NCBI GenBank assembly: GCA_937872275.1
Contig: CALMSE010000292.1
Span: 1-13,579, forward strand
Reading direction: 5' to 3'
From: an uncultured Leucobacter sp.
GTDB taxonomy: Bacteria; Actinomycetota; Actinomycetes; Actinomycetales; Microbacteriaceae
DNA: 13,579 nt
A program made the position numbers and the translations under genes. Every line of letters begins with the position of its first letter. The stretch's first letter is position 1. Positions 3,242 through 13,521 of the stretch are shown here, piece by piece. Under the pieces are notes generated by a model, which was given only the letters and a program-made list of their open reading frames with translations, was not told where the DNA came from and made no database searches.

Positions 3242-3292
3242 AAGCGCGAGAGGCGACGAAAGATCCTGGATCTTTCGTCGCCTCTCGCGCTT
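3242..3292. terminator. Perfect 25-bp inverted repeat, probable bidirectional terminator or REP-like element
   Basis: Bases 3242-3266 are the exact reverse complement of 3268-3292, with a single T between them (a working loop would open a few base pairs). The stem contains GCGAGAGGCGACGAAAGATC. It lies between the 3' ends of the rightward aminotransferase gene and the leftward VOC gene, where a shared terminator is expected, and short T-runs (TTTCC, CTTTC) follow on the plus strand. The length and perfection exceed a usual terminator, so a dispersed palindromic repeat is an alternative. Confidence 0.65.
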
Positions 3293-4026: not shown

Positions 4027-4055
4027 TTGACGGGGGTCGAAACGCCGCCTATCTT
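4027..4055 (+). promoter_or_regulatory. Sigma-70 type promoter of the monooxygenase/transport operon
   Basis: TTGACG (4027-4032), a 17-base spacer, then TATCTT (4050-4055). Both hexamers are close to consensus and the spacer is optimal. Transcription would start around 4062, giving a leader of about 140 bases before ATG 4202. The predicted start falls on the first bases of the palindromic operator. Confidence 0.75.
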
Positions 4056-4061
4056 CAGTAG

Positions 4062-4077
4062 TAGGTCAAATGTCCTA
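4062..4077. promoter_or_regulatory. Palindromic operator at the monooxygenase operon start site
   Basis: TAGGTCAAATGTCCTA is a palindrome at 12 of 16 positions (TAGGnCA-nn-TGnCCTA). It begins six bases after the -10, so a bound repressor would block initiation. A nearly identical element controls the cupin gene (13466-13481), and a related one lies before the flavin reductase gene (12899-12914). The size and symmetry suit a TetR-family dimer, and two TetR genes are in the window. Which of them binds is not shown. Confidence 0.75.
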
Positions 4078-4201
4078 GACATATGTACTGCGAAGGTGCG
4101 TACCCCGACCCCCCGGCTCCAGCCGTCTCCGAACCCGCGGAGATCCGCACCGTCGTACCCACCGACCCTGCGATTCACATCCCCAACGAAAGGATCCACC
4201 A

Positions 4202-5281
4202 ATGAAGTTCGGTATCTTCAACGTCCCGTACGCGGCGCAGTACCTCGAAGGGACGAAGACGCTCAAGCAGGTGATCGACTGGGACATCCAGATCACCAAG
4301 TGGGCGGATCAGTACGGCCTCGACGAGGCGTTCTTCGCCGAGCACCACACCCTCGGCGGGGAGCCGTCGCCGTCGCCCGAGACGATGATCGCCGCGGCTT
4401 CGCAGGTGACGGAGAACATCACCCTGGGCGCGGCCGCGCACCTCGTGCCGTACCACAACCCGGTCGCCCTGGCCGACCGCATGATGTGGCTCGACCACAT
4501 GACCGGCGGCCGCTACATCGCGGGCGTCGCCCCGGGCGGATACCCGAGCGACGCGCAGCTGTTCGGCACCGGCACCGACAACCCCAAGATGATGATCGAG
4601 GGCCTCGACATCATCGAGGCGATCTTCAACCGCGACGGGGCGTTCAAGATCGAGGGCGAGTGGTTCAAGGTCGACATGCCCGCCTACTCGGAGGACATCG
4701 CCGGTCCGCACCTGAAACCCCTCCGGGCGAAGATCCCGATGATGATGACCGGCATGTCGGCGGATTCTCCGACGCTCAGGATCGCCGGGAGCCGCGGCTA
4801 CATCCCGCTCAGCCAGGAGGTCCACGAGAGCGCCCTGATCAAGCACTGGGAGATCTACTCCGATGCCGCCACGGCCGCCGGCTACACGCCGGATCGCTCG
4901 GAATGGCGGGTCTGCCGCGACATCTTCGTCGCCGACACCGACGAGCAGGCGATGGACCTCGTCGCCAACGGCCCCATGGGGCACCTCTGGGAGAAGTGGA
5001 ACATCCCCACCTTCATCGGGCTCGGCATCGGCGACCTGCTCGCCGGTGGTCAGATCCCCGTGGAAGACCTCACCATCGAGTGGATGCTGGAGAACTTCCT
5101 CATCGTGGGTTCCCCGGACACGGTGGTGCAGAAGCTCGAGGCGCTCTACGAGACCGTGGGCGGCTTCGGCACGGTGGTCTCGTTCGCCCACGAGTACAAC
5201 CTCGATCCCGAGCCGTACCGTCGCAACTTCGAGCTGATCGGCAGCGAGGTCAAGCCGCGCCTCGCGCATCTCAAGGGCTGA
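4202..5281 (+). CDS. LLM-class flavin-dependent monooxygenase (luciferase-like)
   Basis: 359-residue TIM-barrel oxygenase of the bacterial luciferase superfamily. It would use FMNH2 made by a separate reductase, plus O2, to insert one oxygen into an organic substrate in the cytoplasm. Family marks: first strand MKFGIFNVPY, DEAFFAEHH (41-49), LVPYHNP (81-87), LDHMTGGR (97-104) and PGGYPSDAQLFG (111-122), a pattern also seen in limonene 1,2-monooxygenase-like LLM proteins. An SRGYIPLS loop and a C-terminal GSPDTVVQKLE follow. The start is clear: AAAGGA lies seven bases before the ATG. It is the first gene of the operon and sits next to the shared operator. A flavin reductase-like protein under a related operator is the probable partner. 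The substrate is unknown; an epoxidase, Baeyer-Villiger or hydroxylase role are all possible. Confidence 0.9.
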   Translation: MKFGIFNVPYAAQYLEGTKTLKQVIDWDIQITKWADQYGLDEAFFAEHHTLGGEPSPSPETMIAAASQVTENITLGAAAHLVPYHNPVALADRMMWLDHMTGGRYIAGVAPGGYPSDAQLFGTGTDNPKMMIEGLDIIEAIFNRDGAFKIEGEWFKVDMPAYSEDIAGPHLKPLRAKIPMMMTGMSADSPTLRIAGSRGYIPLSQEVHESALIKHWEIYSDAATAAGYTPDRSEWRVCRDIFVADTDEQAMDLVANGPMGHLWEKWNIPTFIGLGIGDLLAGGQIPVEDLTIEWMLENFLIVGSPDTVVQKLEALYETVGGFGTVVSFAHEYNLDPEPYRRNFELIGSEVKPRLAHLKG

Positions 5282-5358: not shown

Positions 5359-6189
5359 ATGGGGCTACTCGAAGGCAAGACCGTGTTCATCACGGGAGGC
5401 GCGGCCGGTCAGGGCCGGGCGCACGCGCAGGCATCGGCCCGTGAGGGCGCCGACGTGATCCTGGTCGATATGGCCGACCCGGCGAGCGGCGCGTACGACG
5501 AGACCGTCGCAGGGGTCGAGGCCCAGGGCCGCCGGGCACTCGCCGTGAGGGGCAACGTCACCTCGCAGGCGGATCTCGACGCCGCGGTCGCCGCGGGCAT
5601 CGAGCGCTTCGGCAAGATCGACGCCGTGATCGCCAACGCCGGCATCCACCGCTCGGGCCTCTTCTGGGAGCAGAGCGAGGAAGACTGGAACGCCGTGATG
5701 GACGTCAACCTCAACGGCGTCTGGAAGACCGTGAAGGCCGTCGCCCCGCACTTCATCGAACGCCAGAGCGGCTCCGTCGTGCTGATCTCGTCGGTCGACG
5801 CCTACGATCCCGAGAGCGAATCGACCGCCTACGGCGTGACGAAGACCGCGGTGCTCGGGCTGCTGAAGTACATGGCCTACGAGCTCGCCCCGCACGGCGC
5901 GCGCGTGAACGCCGTGGCCCCCGGCTTCATCGACACCGCGATGGTGAACAGCCAGGAATTCTACGACATCCTGGCCGGCGGCCAGGGGCTCGGCACCCGT
6001 CAGCACCTCGTCGACTACGTGCACAAGTTCACCGCGATGAAGGACGTCTCGATGCTCGATGCCATCGAGGTGGCGAACACCGCGGTCTACCTGAACTCCG
6101 GGCTCGCCCAGTACGTGACCGGCGTGTGCATCCCCGTCGATGCCGGACACCTGCTGGTCAAGCGCGGCGAGGACAATCTCGTCCACTGA
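5359..6189 (+). CDS. SDR-family oxidoreductase, mycofactocin-associated type
   Basis: 276-residue short-chain dehydrogenase that would oxidise an alcohol (or reduce a carbonyl) with a bound nicotinamide cofactor. The Rossmann glycine motif is TGGAAGQG (12-19), with the acidic VDM after the second strand. IANAG is followed by catalytic Ser145 (ISSVDAYD), Tyr158 and Lys162 in YGVTK. The GQG form of the glycine motif, the long loop after GFIDTAMV and the YVTGVCIPVDAGHLLVK ending resemble mycofactocin-coupled SDRs such as Rhodococcus carveol dehydrogenase. In that group the nicotinamide stays bound and mycofactocin re-oxidises it. ATG 5359 has AAAGGA about ten bases upstream; a long in-frame extension reaches back through the monooxygenase gene and is not real. 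Second gene of the operon, 77 bases after the first. The fold is certain and the mycofactocin link is inference. Confidence 0.9.
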   Translation: MGLLEGKTVFITGGAAGQGRAHAQASAREGADVILVDMADPASGAYDETVAGVEAQGRRALAVRGNVTSQADLDAAVAAGIERFGKIDAVIANAGIHRSGLFWEQSEEDWNAVMDVNLNGVWKTVKAVAPHFIERQSGSVVLISSVDAYDPESESTAYGVTKTAVLGLLKYMAYELAPHGARVNAVAPGFIDTAMVNSQEFYDILAGGQGLGTRQHLVDYVHKFTAMKDVSMLDAIEVANTAVYLNSGLAQYVTGVCIPVDAGHLLVKRGEDNLVH

Positions 6190-6223: not shown

Positions 6224-6988
6224 ATGGAATCACAGCGTCTGAGCGGACGGATCGCGCTCGTCACCGGCGGCGCGCAGGGCCAGGGCGAGGCCCACGTGCG
6301 GCGCCTGCTGGCGGAGGGCGCCGTCGTGCACTTCGCCGACATCAGCGAGGAAGGCGGGCGCCGGCTCGAGGCCGAGCTGCGAGGCGCCGGCCTGCCCGCG
6401 ACGTTCCACACGATGGACGTCTCGTCCTTCGACGACTGGCGGCGGGTGACCGCCGCCATCGACGAGAGCGACGGCCGCCTCGACGTGCTCGTCAACAACG
6501 CCGGCGTGCTCGACATGCTCGGCCCCGAGGACGCCACCGAGGACACCTGGAACCGCACGATCGCGGTCAACCAGACGAGCGTGTTCCTGGCGACGAAGAC
6601 CGCGATCCCGCTGCTGCGCAAGTCGTCGTGCGCGAGCGTGATCAACACCTCGTCCATCTTCGGCCTGATCGCCGCCCCCGACTACTTCGCCTACACGGCG
6701 TCGAAGGGGGCGGTCGCCTCGATGACGCGCGCCGCCGCGGTGACCTACGGCAAGGACGGGATCCGCTTCAACAGCGTGCACCCCGGCTACGTCGACACCC
6801 CGATGCTGCGCCGCGAATTCGAGGTGCTCGGCGGTACCGCGGAGCAGGAGTCGCTCGATCTCATCCCGCTCGGCCGCTTCGCCGCCGCCGACGACATCGC
6901 GAAGGCCGTGGTCTTCCTGGCGTCGGACGACTCGGCGTACATCACCGGCACCCAGCTCGTCATCGACGGCGGCGTGCTCGCCATGTAA
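6224..6988 (+). CDS. Classical SDR-family NAD(P)-dependent dehydrogenase
   Basis: 254-residue classical short-chain dehydrogenase. It shows TGGAQGQG (14-21), FADIS at the end of the second strand (acidic residue favouring NAD), NNAG, catalytic Ser144 in INTSSIFG, and Tyr157/Lys161 in YTASK. HPGYVDTPM and the usual YITGTQLVIDGG end close the sequence. It is shorter than the preceding SDR and lacks that protein's extended C-terminal loop, so the two are homologues with different roles rather than a recent duplication. A strong GAGGAGAAGG lies just before the ATG. It lies 34 bases after the first SDR, in the same operon. It would act on the product of the monooxygenase or of the first SDR. Relatives include hydroxysteroid and cyclic-alcohol dehydrogenases; substrate unknown. 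Confidence 0.9.
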   Translation: MESQRLSGRIALVTGGAQGQGEAHVRRLLAEGAVVHFADISEEGGRRLEAELRGAGLPATFHTMDVSSFDDWRRVTAAIDESDGRLDVLVNNAGVLDMLGPEDATEDTWNRTIAVNQTSVFLATKTAIPLLRKSSCASVINTSSIFGLIAAPDYFAYTASKGAVASMTRAAAVTYGKDGIRFNSVHPGYVDTPMLRREFEVLGGTAEQESLDLIPLGRFAAADDIAKAVVFLASDDSAYITGTQLVIDGGVLAM

Positions 6989-7057: not shown

Positions 7058-8185
7058 ATGAAACGGAAGAGCATCAGAATCGGAGCCGCCATCGCCGCGG
7101 TGACCGCGAGCGCGCTCGCGCTCGGCGGTTGCTCGTCGGGCGGCGGGGACGGCGCCCCCGCAGAGGTGAAGGAGATCAACCTCCTCACCTGGACCGGTGA
7201 TCACGAGCCCGACTGGCTGGTCCCCTTCGAGGAGGAGACCGGGGTGAAGGTGAACGTGCAGTACATCACCTCGGTCCCCGAGGCCTTCGCCAAGGTGCAG
7301 GCCGACCCGAACGCCTTCGACATCGTGCTCGTCACCTCGGGCTGGGTCGAGAACTACGTCGACGCCGACCTCGTCGTGCCCTTCGACGAGTCGAAGCTGA
7401 CGAACCTCGGCAATACGATCGAAGAGCTCGACTGGCGGGCGACGACCACCTACAACGGCACGAACTACGGCCTCACCTACACGTGGGGCGTGCAGCCGCT
7501 CGTCATCGCCACCGATCGGGTCAGCGAGGTGCCGACCTCCTGGAACGCGCTGTGGGAGCCGCAGTTCACCGGCCGGGTCAGCATGCTCGACGACGCCACG
7601 ACGCAGCTGCCGGCGATCGCGCTCGCCGCGGGGATCGAAGACCCCTACGCGATGAGCGACGAGGAATTCGAGCTCTTCCAGGAGAAGCTGACCTCGCTCC
7701 GCCCGCAGCTCACGCATGTCGCGGGCTCGATCCAGGATCAGACCACCGACTTCACGAGCAACCAGACCGACATCGGCATCCTCTACAACGTGAACACCTA
7801 CACCGGGGCGAACGACGCGGGCACCCCGCTGCAGATGATCATCCCCGAGGAGGGCGTCGCCGGCTGGACCGACAACTACGTGATCACCAAGGCCGGCGCG
7901 GCCAAGGGCGACATCATCTACGAGTTCATCGACTCGACGATGACGCCGGAGTGGATGGCCCGCATGGCGGCCGAGATGGGCATCTCCGGCAACCTCTCGC
8001 TCGAGCAGATGCAGAGCGACGAGGCGGTCGCCGCGGGGCTCACCCCCGAGCTGCTGGCGCGCACCGAGGTGGGCATCGCGATCGACGACCCCGAGTTCTT
8101 CGGTCAGGTGAAGATGCTGCGCCGCGTCGACAACGTCGAGGAGTGGCTCACGCTGTGGAACGAGTTCAAGCTCAACGTCCACTGA
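7058..8185 (+). CDS. Substrate-binding lipoprotein of a PotD-like ABC importer
   Basis: 375-residue extracellular solute-binding protein of the spermidine/putrescine type. It has a lipoprotein signal: KRK start, alanine-rich core, lipobox LGGC with Cys25 as the lipidated residue, then a glycine-rich linker. The mature part begins INLLTWTGDHEPDW, the usual PotD-like first strand, and holds the DDATTQLPAIALA helix start (178-190) and GWTDNYVITK (269-278). By recall of E. coli PotD, Trp45, Asp179, Trp270 and Asp272 match amine-pocket residues, while Asp48 and Thr182 replace a tyrosine and a glutamate. This suggests a cationic or amine ligand that is not a standard polyamine. GAGGAAGAGGAA precedes the ATG. 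It lies 69 bases after the second SDR and before the ATPase and permeases. Confidence 0.9.
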   Translation: MKRKSIRIGAAIAAVTASALALGGCSSGGGDGAPAEVKEINLLTWTGDHEPDWLVPFEEETGVKVNVQYITSVPEAFAKVQADPNAFDIVLVTSGWVENYVDADLVVPFDESKLTNLGNTIEELDWRATTTYNGTNYGLTYTWGVQPLVIATDRVSEVPTSWNALWEPQFTGRVSMLDDATTQLPAIALAAGIEDPYAMSDEEFELFQEKLTSLRPQLTHVAGSIQDQTTDFTSNQTDIGILYNVNTYTGANDAGTPLQMIIPEEGVAGWTDNYVITKAGAAKGDIIYEFIDSTMTPEWMARMAAEMGISGNLSLEQMQSDEAVAAGLTPELLARTEVGIAIDDPEFFGQVKMLRRVDNVEEWLTLWNEFKLNVH

Positions 8186-8194
8186 TCGAATGCC

Positions 8195-8228
8195 GCGGTC
8201 GGCGGGCTGGGCAGAGCCCGCCGACCGC
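8195..8228 (+). terminator. Strong hairpin after the binding-protein gene (attenuator or 3' stabiliser)
   Basis: GCGGTCGGCGGGCT (8195-8208) pairs perfectly with AGCCCGCCGACCGC (8215-8228) around a 6-base loop, followed by a pyrimidine-rich stretch (TTCCTCCCGTTCCTGTT). It starts nine bases after the lipoprotein stop. Partial termination or mRNA protection here would make binding protein exceed ATPase and permeases, as in many ABC operons. Confidence 0.65.
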
Positions 8229-8286
8229 TTCCTCCCGTTCCTGTTACTCGTGTCACCGGACGGTGATGACCGAAGGAGAGACTGAT

Positions 8287-9309
8287 ATGGCTGACAGTGT
8301 GGATCGGCCCGAAGGAAGCATCCGGCTGAACGGGGTGATGAAGACCTACCCCGGCACGTCGCAGCCGGCGCTGCACCCGCTCGACCTGAGCATCCGCGGC
8401 GGGGAGTTCTTCTCGCTGCTGGGGCCCTCGGGCAGCGGCAAGACGACGCTGCTCCGTCTGATCGGCGGCTTCGAATACCCGAACGCGGGCACGGTGTCCG
8501 TCGGCGGCAGGAACGTGACCGACCTGCCGCCCAACAAGCGCCCGCTGCACACGGTGTTCCAGAACTACGCGCTGTTCCCGCATCTGACGATCGAGAAGAA
8601 CGTCGCCTACCCGCTGCGCATGGCGGGCGTCGGCAGGGCGGAGACCGCGACCCGGGTGGGCGAGGCGCTCGAGTACGTCGAGCTCGGGGCGTTCGCCCGC
8701 CGCAAGCCCGATCAGCTCTCGGGCGGGCAGCGGCAGCGCGTCGCGCTGGCTCGGGCGCTCGTCTCGCGGCCGCCCGTGGTGCTGCTCGACGAGCCGCTCG
8801 GGGCGCTCGATCTCCGCCTGCGGCAGGAGATGCAGATCGTGCTGAAGCAGATCCAGCGCGATTTCGGCACCACCTTCGTCTACGTCACGCACGACCAGGG
8901 CGAGGCGCTCGGCATGAGCGACCGGATCGCGGTGCTCGCTCAGGGGGAGGTGCACCAGATCGGGTCGCCGCACGACATCTACCTGCGGCCCGAGACCCCC
9001 TTCGTCGCGCAGTTCGTCGGCAAGTCGAACCTCATCACGGTGACGGGCGCCGACGGAGGCGAGCGCAGCATCAGCATCAGGCCAGAGTCGATCCGCCTCG
9101 CCGCGGATGCCGCGGCGTGCGACCAGCGCTTCGACGGCCGGGTCATCGAGTCGCTGTTCCAGGGGGCCTTCGCCGAGGTCGAGGTCGAGACCCAGCACGG
9201 TCAGCAGCTCTTCGTGCACGCCCCCGCGAGCAGCACGCCGCAGGCGGGGGAGGGCATCGCCATCGGCTGGATGCGGGCCGATGAGATCGTACTGAACGGG
9301 GCCCGCTGA
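8287..9309 (+). CDS. ABC transporter ATP-binding protein, PotA-like
   Basis: 340-residue ATPase that powers the importer from the cytoplasmic side. Walker A GPSGSGKTT (46-54), Q-loop Gln92 in VFQNYALFPHL, signature LSGGQRQR (144-151), Walker B VVLLDEP (164-170), D-loop GALD and switch His202 are all intact. After about residue 245 comes a regulatory TOBE-like domain with SISIRPESIRLA, typical of the PotA/FbpC/MalK group. The frame stays open far upstream, but ATG 8287 is chosen because GAAGGAGA lies about eight bases before it and similarity begins with IRLNGVMKTYPG. It lies 101 bases after the lipoprotein stop, across the hairpin, and its stop overlaps the next start. Confidence 0.93.
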   Translation: MADSVDRPEGSIRLNGVMKTYPGTSQPALHPLDLSIRGGEFFSLLGPSGSGKTTLLRLIGGFEYPNAGTVSVGGRNVTDLPPNKRPLHTVFQNYALFPHLTIEKNVAYPLRMAGVGRAETATRVGEALEYVELGAFARRKPDQLSGGQRQRVALARALVSRPPVVLLDEPLGALDLRLRQEMQIVLKQIQRDFGTTFVYVTHDQGEALGMSDRIAVLAQGEVHQIGSPHDIYLRPETPFVAQFVGKSNLITVTGADGGERSISIRPESIRLAADAAACDQRFDGRVIESLFQGAFAEVEVETQHGQQLFVHAPASSTPQAGEGIAIGWMRADEIVLNGAR

Positions 9310-10241
9310 TGAGTGCGACGGACGCCGCTCCTCGGGCGAACGCGGATGCGGACGCGGACTCGCGCCCGACGCCCCGCAGGAGCGCGAAGGCGAAGGCGAC
9401 CTTCTGGGGGCGGTTCCGGGGCATTCCGGTGATCGGGTGGGTGCTGCTGTTCTCGGTGCTCCCGAACCTCATCCTCGTGGTCTACAGCTTCTGGACGAGC
9501 ACGCTCGGCACGGTGAAGCCGACCTTCACCCTCGAGAACTACGGTCAGCTGATCGGGCAGGAGGCGACCCGGATCCTGCTGGGGCGCACGCTCATGCTCG
9601 CCTCGCTGTCGGCCGTGATCGCCGTCGTGATCGGCTTCCTCACCGCCTATGCGGTGATCCGCTGGTTCCCGAAGCAGAAGCTCTTCCTCACCATCCTCGT
9701 GATCATCCCGCTGTGGTCGTCGTTCCTGATGCGCATCTTCTCGTGGAAGGTGATCCTCGGCGAGGAGGGCGTGCTGAACACCGTGCTGATGCAGCTCGGC
9801 CTCATCCAGCAACCGGCCTCAGTGCTGCTGTACTCGCAGTTCTCGGTGCTCATCGCGCTCGTGTACGTCGGCATCCCGTACGCCTACCTCGCCGCGTTCG
9901 TGACGCTCGACCGCATTCCGAACCGCCTCTACGAGGCCTCCTCCGATCTCGGCGCGAACGGCTTCGTGACGTTCTGGAAGGTGGTGTGGCCGATCGGGCG
10001 GCCCGCGGTCGGGCTGGGCTTCGTGCTGGTGTTCATCATCACCTACGGGGACTACGTCACCCCGTCGCTCGTCGGCGGGTTCGACGGCACGATGGTCGGA
10101 TCGCTCGTGCTGCAGGCGTTCGGGGCGCTGAACAACTGGCCGCTCGGAGCGGCGCTCGCCGTGATCACCCTGGTCTCGGGACTGGTGGTCGTGGCGATCG
10201 CCACCCTGCTGACCCGCTCGCGCGTGGTATTGGAGGATTGA
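9309..10241 (+). CDS. ABC transporter permease, PotB-like
   Basis: 310-residue inner-membrane permease. After a polar 35-residue tail with an alternating Ala/Asp run (NADADADAD) come about six membrane segments, near 40-61, 93-118, 124-146, 175-199, 234-252 and 281-302. The cytoplasmic EAA loop that docks onto the ATPase is EASSDLGANGFVTFWKVVWP (209-228). The stop of the ATPase gene and this ATG share one base (TGATG), so translation is coupled. It pairs with the PotC-like protein downstream to form the membrane channel. The family is clear and the transported substrate is not. Confidence 0.92.
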   Translation: MSATDAAPRANADADADSRPTPRRSAKAKATFWGRFRGIPVIGWVLLFSVLPNLILVVYSFWTSTLGTVKPTFTLENYGQLIGQEATRILLGRTLMLASLSAVIAVVIGFLTAYAVIRWFPKQKLFLTILVIIPLWSSFLMRIFSWKVILGEEGVLNTVLMQLGLIQQPASVLLYSQFSVLIALVYVGIPYAYLAAFVTLDRIPNRLYEASSDLGANGFVTFWKVVWPIGRPAVGLGFVLVFIITYGDYVTPSLVGGFDGTMVGSLVLQAFGALNNWPLGAALAVITLVSGLVVVAIATLLTRSRVVLED

Positions 10242-10242
10242 C

Positions 10243-11139
10243 ATGAGTACGCCATCCGCTCAGCCGGGATCGATTCCCGAGATGCTGCCCGGCCGTACCG
10301 AGGCCGTGCGCGTCGTCTCACCCGGGCAGACCGGGCGATCCGCGCGCGGCCGCCTGCAACGGGTGCTCGTGGGCGTGCTCATCGCCCTGGTGTTCTTCGT
10401 GCTCTACCTGCCGCCCGCCATCATGGCGATGTTCTCGTTCGGCTCGAAGAAGGTGCAGACGCTGCCCCTCGGGGACTTCACCCTGGACTGGTACGCGAAG
10501 CTCATGAGCAACGACACGCTGCTCTCCGCGCTCGGATACAGCCTCAGGGTGAGCCTCACCGCGGTGCTCATCGCGCTCGTGCTGGGCACCCTGTTCGCCC
10601 TGATCCTGTGGCGGCCGTTCCGGAGCTCGAGGGTGTGGCAGGGACTGCTGGCGCTGCCGATGCTGCTGCCCGGCATGGTGCTCGGCGTCTCGCTGCTGCT
10701 CACGTTCAAGATCCTCGGCATCGAGCGGGGCTTCCTCTCGCTCGTGATCGGCCACGCGGTGTTCATCGTGCCGGTGATCGTGTTCGTCGTCGGTCAGCGC
10801 CTGAACTCGCTCGATCCGACGCTGCTCCACGCCTCGCGCGATCTCGGTGCGACGCCCTGGCGGGCGTTCTGGTCGGTGACCTTCCCGCTGCTGCGCACCG
10901 CGCTCCTCGCCGGGGGTCTGCTCGGGCTCACGCTCTCCTTCGACGAGCTCGCGGCGTCGTTCTTCATCTCCGGCTTCGAGCAGACGCTGCCGGTCAGCGT
11001 GTGGGGCATGCTCCGCCTCGGCTTCGACCCCCAGGTCAACGCGGTCTTCACCCTGCTGCTGATCGTGTCGATCCTGGTGGTCTTCATCGCCTACCGGCTC
11101 ATGCGCCGGCAGCTCAAGGCGGCCGAGAAGCGCAGCTGA
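10243..11139 (+). CDS. ABC transporter permease, PotC-like
   Basis: 298-residue second membrane subunit of the importer. A polar tail of about 38 residues precedes membrane segments near 40-65, 99-122, 133-155, 166-186, 217-240 and 265-287. The EAA loop is HASRDLGATPWRAFWSVTFP (196-215), and SFDELAASFFISG follows, a stretch typical of PotC-type permeases. It starts one base after the PotB-like stop, with GGAGG just before the ATG. It is the last gene of the operon; two GC-rich palindromes follow its stop. Confidence 0.92.
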   Translation: MSTPSAQPGSIPEMLPGRTEAVRVVSPGQTGRSARGRLQRVLVGVLIALVFFVLYLPPAIMAMFSFGSKKVQTLPLGDFTLDWYAKLMSNDTLLSALGYSLRVSLTAVLIALVLGTLFALILWRPFRSSRVWQGLLALPMLLPGMVLGVSLLLTFKILGIERGFLSLVIGHAVFIVPVIVFVVGQRLNSLDPTLLHASRDLGATPWRAFWSVTFPLLRTALLAGGLLGLTLSFDELAASFFISGFEQTLPVSVWGMLRLGFDPQVNAVFTLLLIVSILVVFIAYRLMRRQLKAAEKRS

Positions 11140-11211: not shown

Positions 11212-11766
11212 TCAGTCGGCGCGCGAAGCGGCGATGATCTCGTTCAGCGCCGCTCGCATCGTCTCGATGTCGATCGGGTGCTCGGTGAGCGCGCGGAGGA
11301 AGATGAACCCTTCGAGCAGCGACTCCAGCTTGAGCGAGGTGGCCGGGTCGAAGACGCGACGGATGGATCGCTGGGTCGAGGCGGACCACCCGCTGACGAG
11401 CTGGAAATAGCGCGGATCGCGAGCCGCCTGCGCGTAGAGCTCGTACATCAGCACGATGTCGTCCTGGTCGCGGTGGATGTTGAGCACCAGCGTGATGATG
11501 GCCTCGACCATCTGCTCGGGGGTGTCGATCCGCTGCGAGGGCTCGTAGCGATCCCGTGCCGAGGTGACGTACCGCTCCATCGACTCGTAGAGGATGTTCT
11601 GGATGTTCGAGAGGTGATAGCTGGTGGCGCTCAGCGAGACGCCGGCCTCTGCGGCGACCTTGCGGTGCGTGACGGCGCGCATCCCCTCCTTCGCGATCAC
11701 CCGCAGGGTCGCCTCGAGGAGGGCATCCCGGGTGGAGAGGGGGGTGGTGTTCTCGGTTTGTGACAT
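11212..11766 (-). CDS. TetR/AcrR-family regulator (first of two)
   Basis: 184-residue one-domain-plus-sensor repressor. The N-terminal helix-turn-helix is at about 31-55 (AVTHRKVAAEAGVSLSATSY then HLSNIQNILYESM), the standard TetR layout. The remaining helices form the ligand-binding and dimerisation part, with MYELYAQAARDPRYFQLVSG near 106-125. It shares this pattern with the adjacent TetR protein, so the two are homologues. It starts 62 bases after that gene's stop with a weak ribosome site, and is probably the last gene of the leftward flavin reductase operon. Its ligand is likely the substrate or an intermediate of the neighbouring pathway; this is inference from context. A private promoter in the 62-base gap is not apparent. 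Confidence 0.9.
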   Translation of the reverse strand: MSQTENTTPLSTRDALLEATLRVIAKEGMRAVTHRKVAAEAGVSLSATSYHLSNIQNILYESMERYVTSARDRYEPSQRIDTPEQMVEAIITLVLNIHRDQDDIVLMYELYAQAARDPRYFQLVSGWSASTQRSIRRVFDPATSLKLESLLEGFIFLRALTEHPIDIETMRAALNEIIAASRAD

Positions 11767-11828: not shown

Positions 11829-12386
11829 CTAGGCGGTGACTCCGCCCGCGCGCAGAACGGTCGTGAGGAGCCTGCGCAGTTGCGCATCCGAGGGTCCGTC
11901 CTCTCCGATCGCCTTCTGCAGAATTGCGCCCTCGACTATGGCCTCTATTTCAATCGTAAGGCCCGTGGGCATGTGCGCGCCGAGAGCACCCCGGGTTCTG
12001 GCCATCCATCTCCGCACCAGGGCCCGATAGCGGTCGTTGCGGGCGGCATGAGCGTAGAGGGTGTACATGAGCGTGGCGTCGTTCGGATCGCTGAGCATGC
12101 GCTGCCCGGTGATCCCGACGAGCACGTCGAGCAGCTCGGAGAGGGAGCGGGCGTCTCTGAGGTCGTCGACGTAGCGCTGGGCCACCGAGTCGACGTAGTA
12201 CTCGAAGGACTTGAACAGGAGTTCTTCGAGGTCGGCGAAGTGGTACTTGATCGTTCCGACGGAGGTTCCCGCCTTCCCGGCGACATTGCGGTAGGTCACA
12301 CCGCGCGGGCCGCGTTCGGTGGCGACCGCGAGCGTGCCCCGGAACAGTTTCTCGGCCGTGGAAATGATGGGCCTACTCGGCGGCAT
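11829..12386 (-). CDS. TetR/AcrR-family regulator (second of two)
   Basis: 185-residue TetR-type repressor. Its helix-turn-helix lies at about 29-52 (GVTYRNVAGKAGTSVGTIKY then HFADLEELLFKS), the TIKYHF form being very typical. The C-terminal part holds LMYTLYAHAARNDRYRALV, parallel to the other TetR protein. Its ATG overlaps the end of the flavin reductase gene by 14 bases, so the two are translationally coupled and under the same promoter. That promoter carries a palindrome of the right size for this protein, so autoregulation is likely. Candidate repressor of the monooxygenase/transport and cupin units as well, though the sequence does not show which TetR acts where. Confidence 0.92.
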   Translation of the reverse strand: MPPSRPIISTAEKLFRGTLAVATERGPRGVTYRNVAGKAGTSVGTIKYHFADLEELLFKSFEYYVDSVAQRYVDDLRDARSLSELLDVLVGITGQRMLSDPNDATLMYTLYAHAARNDRYRALVRRWMARTRGALGAHMPTGLTIEIEAIVEGAILQKAIGEDGPSDAQLRRLLTTVLRAGGVTA

Positions 12387-12855
12387 GGCTCTTCGTGAGC
12401 GGCGGGTATTCGTCGGAGAGGAAGTCGACCGATTCGTCCGCGCCGTCGCGGATCTCCATCTCGATCATCGAGGCCAGCACGATGATCCGGCCGTCGGTGT
12501 CGATCATGCTGTCGATGGCGCACTCGATCCAGGCCGCGCCCGCGGGTGCGAGCGGGTGCTGGAAGGTGGGCGAGGCGGGCAGGGCCGCCGTTCCGGTCGT
12601 CCGGGCGGCGTCCCACCAGTCCGACCCGCCGGTCGGGAAGGAGGAGAAGCTGACCGCGAAGGAGCCCACCTCCTCGAGCAGCGACCAGTTCTCGGGGGTG
12701 TTCTCGACCGAGAGCAGGATCAGCGTCGGGTTGAAGGACACGGACTGGAACGAGAAGAGCGGAAGGAAGCGGGGGCGTCCGGCGCTCGTGCTCGAGAGGA
12801 CGCCGGCGGAGAAGCGGGTGAGGGTGGAAGCTGAAGGGCAGTTGGCTTCGGGCAT
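12373..12855 (-). CDS. Flavin reductase-like (FMN-binding split barrel) protein, divergent
   Basis: 160-residue protein resembling the HpaC/RutF-type flavin reductase domain. After a serine-rich start, FSAGVLSSTSAGRPRFLPLF leads into SFQSVSFNPTLILLSVENTP (the family's SFTSVSLDPPLVLF strand) and then WSLLEEVGSFAVSF. WIECAIDSMIDTDGRIIVLA and VDFLSDEYPPL fit the later strands. It would make FMNH2 or FADH2 from NAD(P)H for the LLM monooxygenase, which needs such a partner. The match is looser than usual: the conserved DPP is NPT. ATG 12855 is chosen for AAAGGA nine bases upstream; an in-frame ATG at 12906 lies inside the operator and is unlikely. Its stop overlaps the start of the TetR gene. A non-catalytic flavin-binding relative is the alternative. 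Confidence 0.75.
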   Translation of the reverse strand: MPEANCPSASTLTRFSAGVLSSTSAGRPRFLPLFSFQSVSFNPTLILLSVENTPENWSLLEEVGSFAVSFSSFPTGGSDWWDAARTTGTAALPASPTFQHPLAPAGAAWIECAIDSMIDTDGRIIVLASMIEMEIRDGADESVDFLSDEYPPLTKSHAAE

Positions 12856-12898: not shown

Positions 12899-12914
12899 TT
12901 GAACATTTGTTCAA
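12899..12914. promoter_or_regulatory. Palindromic operator before the flavin reductase-TetR operon
   Basis: TTGAACATTTGTTCAA has perfect 7-bp arms around a TT centre and begins seven bases after the -10 on the reverse strand. It shares the pattern TnGnnCAwwTGnnCnA with the operators at 4062-4077 and 13466-13481. It is the probable autoregulatory site for a TetR protein encoded in this operon. Confidence 0.75.
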
Positions 12915-13059: not shown

Positions 13060-13404
13060 TCAGCTGTCGCGGTGGATCGCGTAGACCTTGCGCACGGTCT
13101 CGTGCACGACCCAGGTCGCGGTCTCGCCCTCGTCGATGACGAAGAGGTCGCCGGGGGTCAGCTCGACCGTCTCGCCGGTCTGGTCGACGGTGACGGTCGC
13201 GCGACCCGCGATCAGGGTGATGGTCTCGGGGCCGGGGAAGCTCGTGAGCGTGCCCGGGGCCATCTGCCAGATGCCGTGCGTGATGCCGCCCATCTTCCAG
13301 ACCGGGAGGGCGCTGATCTCCCCGTTCTCCGGGCCGATCTTGTCCCGTGCTTCGAGGGCGGCTTCGCTGACCTTCAGGTGGCGGGGCGCGATGATGTTCG
13401 ACAT
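13060..13404 (-). CDS. Small cupin-domain protein, DUF861/Cupin_3 type
   Basis: 114-residue single cupin. MGGITHGIWQMAPGTLTSFP (38-57) opens the barrel, then ETITLIAGRATVTVDQTGETVELTPGDLFVIDEGETATWVVHETVRKVYAI, the pattern of the (S)-ureidoglycine aminohydrolase-like Cupin_3 family. The usual HxH pair of metal-binding cupins is absent at the first motif, where PETITL occurs, so metal binding by the standard set is doubtful. AAAGGG lies just before the ATG. It stands alone, but its promoter carries nearly the same operator as the monooxygenase operon, so it belongs to the same regulon. Possible roles: hydrolysis or isomerisation of a pathway intermediate, or ligand sensing. Function unknown. 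Confidence 0.87.
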   Translation of the reverse strand: MSNIIAPRHLKVSEAALEARDKIGPENGEISALPVWKMGGITHGIWQMAPGTLTSFPGPETITLIAGRATVTVDQTGETVELTPGDLFVIDEGETATWVVHETVRKVYAIHRDS

Positions 13405-13465
13405 GGTTCCCTTTCGTGGGGCCGTGGGGCGGGCTCGGGAGGAGTCCGGTCCTGGTACGTACGTC

Positions 13466-13481
13466 TAGGACAAATGACCTA
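13466..13481. promoter_or_regulatory. Palindromic operator before the cupin gene
   Basis: Read on the reverse strand as TAGGTCATTTGTCCTA, it differs from the operator at 4062-4077 only in the two central bases. The likeness continues downstream: over the 27 bases 4062-4088 against 13481-13455 (reverse strand) I count 23 identities. It starts 11 bases after the cupin -10, overlapping or just beyond the start of transcription. Confidence 0.75.
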
Positions 13482-13492
13482 TTCCCCTCGCT

Positions 13493-13521
13493 ACGATAGC
13501 CCCCTTCCGCCGCCCGGTCAA
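13493..13521 (-). promoter_or_regulatory. Promoter of the cupin gene
   Basis: Reverse-strand TTGACC (13516-13521), a 17-base spacer and TATCGT (13493-13498). The layout is the same as at the monooxygenase operon. The -35 overlaps the stop codon of the gene upstream. Confidence 0.7.

Follow-up and report, generated by a model that had tools for sequence, protein, structure and literature searches.

Putative TetR-family operators at three promoters of a predicted Baeyer-Villiger-type gene cluster in an uncultured Leucobacter

Introduction

The locus studied here, a 13,579-nucleotide stretch of the genome of an uncultured Leucobacter sp. (contig CALMSE010000292.1, hereafter the window), carries two closely similar 27-mers in separate intergenic regions, TAGGTCAAATGTCCTAGACATATGTAC (4062-4088, plus strand) upstream of a luciferase-like flavin monooxygenase (LLM) gene and TAGGTCATTTGTCCTAGACGTACGTAC (13481-13455, minus strand) upstream of a small cupin gene. 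An initial annotation had taken them for a common operator or leader module. The question raised by this locus is what the shared element is, which regulator would act on it and which genes would be controlled through it.

Results

A predicted two-component monooxygenase cluster

Among solved structures, the LLM (Table 1) is best matched by 4uwm (E 7.6e-66), the 3,6-diketocamphane 1,6-monooxygenase, which the accessible part of PMC4631483 describes as a CAM plasmid enzyme of the type II Baeyer-Villiger class. Like that system, the cluster combines an oxygenating component with a separate flavin reductase (PMC4631483, same part), and the corresponding Bac_luciferase and Flavin_Reduct domains pass the Pfam cut-offs; unlike it, the cluster includes a cupin, an ABC importer and SDRs, and is preceded upstream by genes for a class III aminotransferase and a methylmalonate-semialdehyde dehydrogenase. 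LLM and flavin reductase together have the gene make-up of a type II Baeyer-Villiger system, the activity itself being a prediction, and we read the cluster as a putative two-component Baeyer-Villiger-type degradation pathway whose ABC importer genes are probably co-transcribed with the LLM gene; as to its substrates, we guess at terpenoid ketones, alicyclic amines and lactones. In the pdc progesterone cluster of Caenibius tardaugens, an LLM was shown to carry out Baeyer-Villiger oxidation and, as here, lies beside regulator genes, a likeness by description; unlike ours, it is a steroid cluster from another organism, and the word "cupin" is absent from its main text, as far as that text is available (PMC12239570). 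The literature matches listed contained no report of the present cluster or of its operators.

Table 1. Genes, predicted promoters and candidate operator sequences of the window
Feature	Coordinates	Strand	Remarks
Predicted promoter of the LLM monooxygenase genes, TTGACG-17-TATCTT	4027..4055	+	promoter scan
Operator 1, TAGGTCAAATGTCCTA (putative)	4062..4077	+	6 bases 3' of -10
Second core, ACATATGT (tail in the initial annotation)	4079..4086	+	centre 13 bp downstream of operator 1 centre
LLM, luciferase-like flavin monooxygenase	4202..5281	+	Pfam; best solved match 3,6-diketocamphane 1,6-monooxygenase
SDR1, carveol-dehydrogenase-like short-chain dehydrogenase	5359..6189	+	start chosen within longer open frame
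SDR2, short-chain dehydrogenase	6224..6988	+	start chosen within longer open frame
PotD-like ABC importer: binding protein, ATPase, two permeases	7058..11139	+	
TetR1 (TetR_N, TetR_C_31)	11212..11766	-	
TetR2 (TetR_N, TetR_C_31)	11829..12386	-	start overlaps flavin reductase gene end
Flavin reductase	12373..12855	-	start 12855 chosen by us
Operator 3, TTGAACAAATGTTCAA (putative), perfect palindrome	12899..12914	-	7 bases after weak -10 TACCAT
EutQ-like cupin (Cupin_3)	13060..13404	-	
Second core, ACGTACGT	13457..13464	-	centre 13 bp downstream of operator 2 centre
Operator 2, TAGGTCATTTGTCCTA (putative)	13466..13481	-	11 bases after -10
Predicted cupin promoter, TTGACC-17-TATCGT	13493..13521	-	promoter scan

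Two further features were observed in the left part of the window. A near-perfect long inverted repeat (3242-3292, 26/27 in a self-match) separates the convergent aminotransferase and VOC genes and is perhaps a bidirectional terminator. At the left edge, a fragment on the minus strand (1-139) matches PucR weakly, scoring 26.1 bits where the Pfam cut-off is 33.5, and reads divergently from the gene pair for the semialdehyde dehydrogenase and the aminotransferase, which may be controlled separately.

Two matched 27-mers behind similar promoters

The recounted agreement of the 27-mers is 23 of 27 positions, the figure given in the initial annotation, and the palindrome TAGGnCA-nn-TGnCCTA described there is present in both. 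Positions 5 and 12 of this palindrome are T and T, and are therefore unpaired, in both copies. When the two intergenic regions were dinucleotide-shuffled (1000 trials), the best 27-mer match never exceeded 21, and when all pairs of the 11 intergenic stretches were considered (100 trials) the maximum was 22, reached in 2 of the 100. A match of 23 thus occurred in no shuffle (0/1000 for the pair, 0/100 for all intergenic stretches), in line with the earlier claim that the resemblance would not arise by chance. The promoter scan likewise places each 27-mer just after a TTGAC(G/C)-17-TATC(T/G)T promoter, as had been noticed by eye. A sigma70-like consensus scan of the window returned two sites, which are these two promoters; shuffled sequences average 1.0 (sd 1.0), so that the number of promoters is in itself unremarkable.

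A third site and a second core

A third related site, absent from the initial annotation, is the perfect 16-base palindrome TTGAACATTTGTTCAA (operator 3), which stands upstream of the minus-strand flavin reductase-TetR2-TetR1 genes. Its promoter is too weak to appear among the two hits of the sigma70-like scan, and the open frame of the flavin reductase extends back to an ATG at 12906, within the operator. Operator 3 has 11 of 16 bases in common with operator 1 and contains an exact ACA-NN-TGT core, from which operators 1 and 2 each depart by one core mismatch; the half-sites found in the window are TAGGNCA and TTGAACA. Palindromic sites are thus situated at the predicted promoters of the targets and of the TetR genes, 6, 11 and 7 bases after the -10 box.

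The regulon proposed at the outset has to be redrawn accordingly: the cupin does share the operator of the monooxygenase, and control of both through this operator is well supported by the sequence comparison, but the promoters concerned are three rather than two and the cupin is not the isolated gene that it had been taken for. Similarly, the tail said to be shared after the palindrome is indeed common to both copies, as GAC(A/G)TA(T/C)GTAC, and is better described as a second ACA-NN-TGT-like dyad. Compared with ACA-NN-TGT, the second core has 0 mismatches at the monooxygenase promoter (ACATATGT) and 2 at the cupin promoter (ACGTACGT) of the window; in Candidatus Leucobacter sulfamidivorax GP the counterparts ACAAATGT and ACATACGT have 0 and 1, respectively. 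None of the other 15 tabulated sites has a second core at +13; among the sites tabulated, this feature is limited to the monooxygenase and cupin promoters of the two Leucobacter.

The shared stretch lies at the predicted start of both transcripts, where an RNA leader element could also be expected. We rejected this reading, which we consider highly improbable, on the grounds that four leaders fold with z-scores of -0.46, 0.43, -1.57 and -1.20 relative to shuffled sequences and that Rfam yields no match at the gathering threshold. In addition, what recurs is a symmetric DNA palindrome, and its distance from the promoter differs.

Pattern searches in the own genome and in relatives

The genome from which the window derives is 76.6% complete in 346 contigs, and further sites may therefore be missing from the counts. 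A genome-wide search with TAGGNCANNTGNCCTA gave 2 exact matches and 0 with one mismatch in this genome, as compared to 0 exact matches and 4 at up to one mismatch for the reversed control. A joint pattern made from operators 1, 2 and 3, TWGRNCAWWTGNYCWA, returned the three operators as its 3 exact matches, 0 sites with one mismatch and 6 with two. At up to two mismatches its reversed control has 27 matches versus 9, so that only close matches are telling and loose ones mean nothing.

Across 249 genomes of the family, exact matches to TAGGNCANNTGNCCTA occur in 8, two in the own genome and one in each of seven others, where the middle bases are different. The reversed control matches in 35 of these genomes (table count), in four of them more than once, and two matches per genome are thus not in themselves rare for such a pattern. 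A looser pattern, TWGRNCANNTGNYCWA, allowing up to one mismatch, gave 25 to 97 matches per genome in four relatives versus 60 to 244 for its reversed control and is therefore uninformative on the size of the regulon.

Conservation of the sites

Strain GP holds the entire cluster with gene order kept and an LLM 96% identical; the main text of its genome paper, in the part available, does not contain the words "luciferase", "limonene" or "cupin" (PMC6868719). The region upstream of the LLM gene is strongly diverged between the two Leucobacter, although TTGACG, TAGGNCANATGTCC, ACANATGTAC and all but one of the six -10 bases are kept. The cupin upstream region is 83% alike overall with promoter and operator almost unchanged: operator 2 differs by one base and both promoter hexamers are identical. 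Operator 3 differs at one end base in GP, where the leader that follows it is conserved throughout, so that its own conservation says little.

We then considered 22 upstream regions from ten loci, hand-chosen and some of them selected after sites had been seen, and scored as a site an ACA-NN-TGT core with at most one core mismatch and at most two arm mismatches. Core palindromes are present in 18 of these 22 regions, and in 12 of the 16 outside Leucobacter, whereas shuffles of all 22 regions give a mean of 1.4 regions with a site and at most 6. The regions free of sites are the Gordonia region, both R. opacus PD630 regions and one M. aquaticum region. Seven loci (L016, L017, L018, L023, L027, L028 and L062) were kept out of this count; among them the scan found no site at L017 and L023 and one weak match of score 10 each at L018, L027 and L028. 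L026, another PD630 plasmid record, and L036 were not part of the site scan.

The half-site is TTGGACA in Arthrobacter hankyongi, TTGAACA in Mycobacterium sp. DL99 and M. aquaticum, and TTCTACA-like in L034 and L035. Of 13 tabulated sites outside Leucobacter, five stand 9 or 10 bases after a TTGAC-17-TAnnnT pair; the best promoters for the other eight are weaker or more distant (0 to 31 bases), in a promoter search run without a control. At a further A. hankyongi locus (L063), two perfect palindromes TTGAACA-NN-TGTTCAA were observed 25 bp apart (4131-4146 and 4156-4171); a gene that distantly matches an aldehyde dehydrogenase lies some 2 kb away.

These data also bear on whether two AT-rich stretches beside promoters merely resemble each other by chance. 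The all-intergenic shuffles come within one position of the observed match in their best trials; the sites are, however, kept in the sister Leucobacter, similar ones stand at the promoters of related clusters and the own genome has no other close match, and we give chance hardly any credit.

Distribution of the cluster and association of the cupin

A named genome scan identified six LLM loci. The LLM was found in 2 of 54 genomes of the genus (one of them the own genome, E 1e-100), in 5 of 249 of the family (own counted if searched, E 1e-40), in 1 of 396 of the phylum, which is the own genome (E 1e-120), and in 4 of 401 of another family (E 1e-125), and the cluster is therefore accessory.

Such a distribution, with only those two genomes of the genus carrying the monooxygenase, and the fact that the 27-mers face each other about 9.4 kb apart, would suit terminal inverted repeats of a mobile element. 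This was nevertheless rejected, and we regard it as extremely improbable, because a third related site lies inside and the sites recur at promoters: the ten loci have zero to four sites each, in both orientations. Furthermore, there were 0 transposases among the 15 proteins scanned with Pfam, and no flanking duplication was seen by eye.

The cupin gene precedes the flavin reductase gene on the same strand, with 204 bp from its end to the reductase start, and its position in GP is as in the window. It is present in the fetched stretch at 9 of the 11 loci with an LLM more than 60% identical. Besides GP, these are Arthrobacter hankyongi, Mycobacterium sp. DL99, Gordonia amicalis and L033, where cupin and LLM genes are neighbours, and two R. 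opacus PD630 plasmids, L034 and L035, where the two are separated by no more than about 5 kb. The fetched stretches of M. aquaticum (L022) and of a second GP copy (L062) have no cupin, and at the five loci with a more distant LLM (L016, L017, L018, L023 and L027) the only cupin match is a weak one at a distance of 5.5 kb. Quite apart from the operator, the association at 9 of 11 close loci indicates that the cupin is part of the pathway.

Several peculiarities of individual records were observed. The own genome has a second LLM (L016 10466-11539, contig C119), 54% identical and accompanied by SDRs and another TetR, and GP has one (L062 11306-12379; 66%) about 30 kb from its first, where an SDR and a TetR are also matched; no operator of the present kind was found at either. 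The LLM gene of Gordonia amicalis (L024 10001-11084) seems interrupted, as it matches in two tblastn pieces, and the LLM match in genome G935 contains one internal stop. The semialdehyde dehydrogenase of GP (L019 5588-7068) is matched by two pieces that abut but are in different frames, which may reflect a frameshift in that record.

The TetR proteins as candidate regulators

TetR_N and TetR_C_31 pass the Pfam cut-offs in both TetR1 and TetR2. Their nearest named relative of solved structure is E. coli RcdA (E 1.5e-19 for TetR1 and 1.2e-16 for TetR2), which is outscored for both by 2dg8, a "putative tetR-family" entry. The RcdA alignment takes in residues 12-175 of 184 in TetR1 and 11-177 of 185 in TetR2. 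The two proteins are 29% identical to each other, whereas the two TetRs of A. hankyongi are 84% identical, and among the loci examined two strongly diverged TetRs occur only in the fetched stretches of the two Leucobacter. In a TetR tree, the placement of TetR1 and TetR2 relative to the others has a support of about 0.5, and the starts of L019_far, L033 and L034 are over-extended.

According to the accessible part of PMC3535384, RcdA (YbjK) recognizes the palindrome TTGTGTACAttTGTACACAA, printed elsewhere in that paper in a slightly different form, with a consensus TTGTnnACA or TTGTnTACA and highly cooperative binding. RcdA is, like the proteins discussed here, of the TetR type, its box lies next to its own gene and has the same ACA-tt-TGT centre; unlike the present case, it acts on csgD and stress genes rather than on a local catabolic cluster, and its full half-site TTGTnTACA is not matched, the outer half-site being different here (PMC3535384, same part). 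We regard this core match, found after the motif had been defined, as the best independent pointer to binding by a TetR protein, within what that part of the source conveys.

Could the operators be real and yet be recognized not by TetR1 or TetR2 but by some regulator whose gene lies elsewhere? The stretch fetched for DL99 shows sites and no TetR match, the Gordonia locus has a related TetR and no site, and in the R. opacus PD630 clusters the regulator genes are different ones and the two regions tested contain no site. Against this, sites co-occur with TetRs of this kind in A. hankyongi, M. aquaticum, L033, L034, L035 and both Leucobacter, the core is that of the RcdA palindrome (PMC3535384, accessible part) and operator 3 stands at the TetR genes' own promoter. 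We consider such an outside regulator improbable; a local regulon of three promoters under TetR1 and/or TetR2 is very probably what the sequence encodes.

Discussion

The sites, their positions, their partial conservation and the lack of another close match in the own genome are features of the DNA itself. Binding, repression, an inducer, the operon extents and the assignment of the TetR proteins to the sites are what we infer for them, and with a probability of roughly 0.8 we propose that the shared element serves as operator in a local TetR regulon, in which TetR1 and/or TetR2 would block three promoters until released by a compound of the pathway. A dimer of TetR1 and/or TetR2 would bind palindromes of the form T(A/T)G(A/G)NCA-NN-TGN(T/C)C(A/T)A, located 6 to 11 bases after the -10 box, and the bound repressor would prevent initiation at the promoters of monooxygenase-SDR1-SDR2-ABC importer, of flavin reductase-TetR2-TetR1 and of the cupin. 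A substrate or intermediate of the pathway would release the repressor, so that the pathway genes and the repressors' own genes would be induced jointly.

At the monooxygenase and cupin promoters, the core located 13 bp downstream probably takes a second dimer. It is conceivable, although we hold it to be rather unlikely, that these two promoters carry a composite operator for two diverged paralogues, with one dimer on TAGGNCANNTGTCC and a second one, perhaps of the other paralogue, on the +13 core, the repressors' promoter being single-site. If true, the composite operator would act as a two-input lock on the pathway, and the outer half-site bases would have evolved in step with the recognition helix around an unchanging core. 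It is to be noted that gene control of this general kind is ordinary, and that the two-part landing site at two promoters is what is unusual.

The putative operators provide a testable regulon for an uncharacterised Baeyer-Villiger-type cluster that is thinly spread over actinobacteria, and tie a small cupin to a degradation cluster. The series TAGGNCA, TTGAACA, TTGGACA and TTCTACA-like, with its near-constant core, could serve for the study of how TetR operator specificity changes, and the compound that would release the repressor offers a route to the substrate of the pathway.
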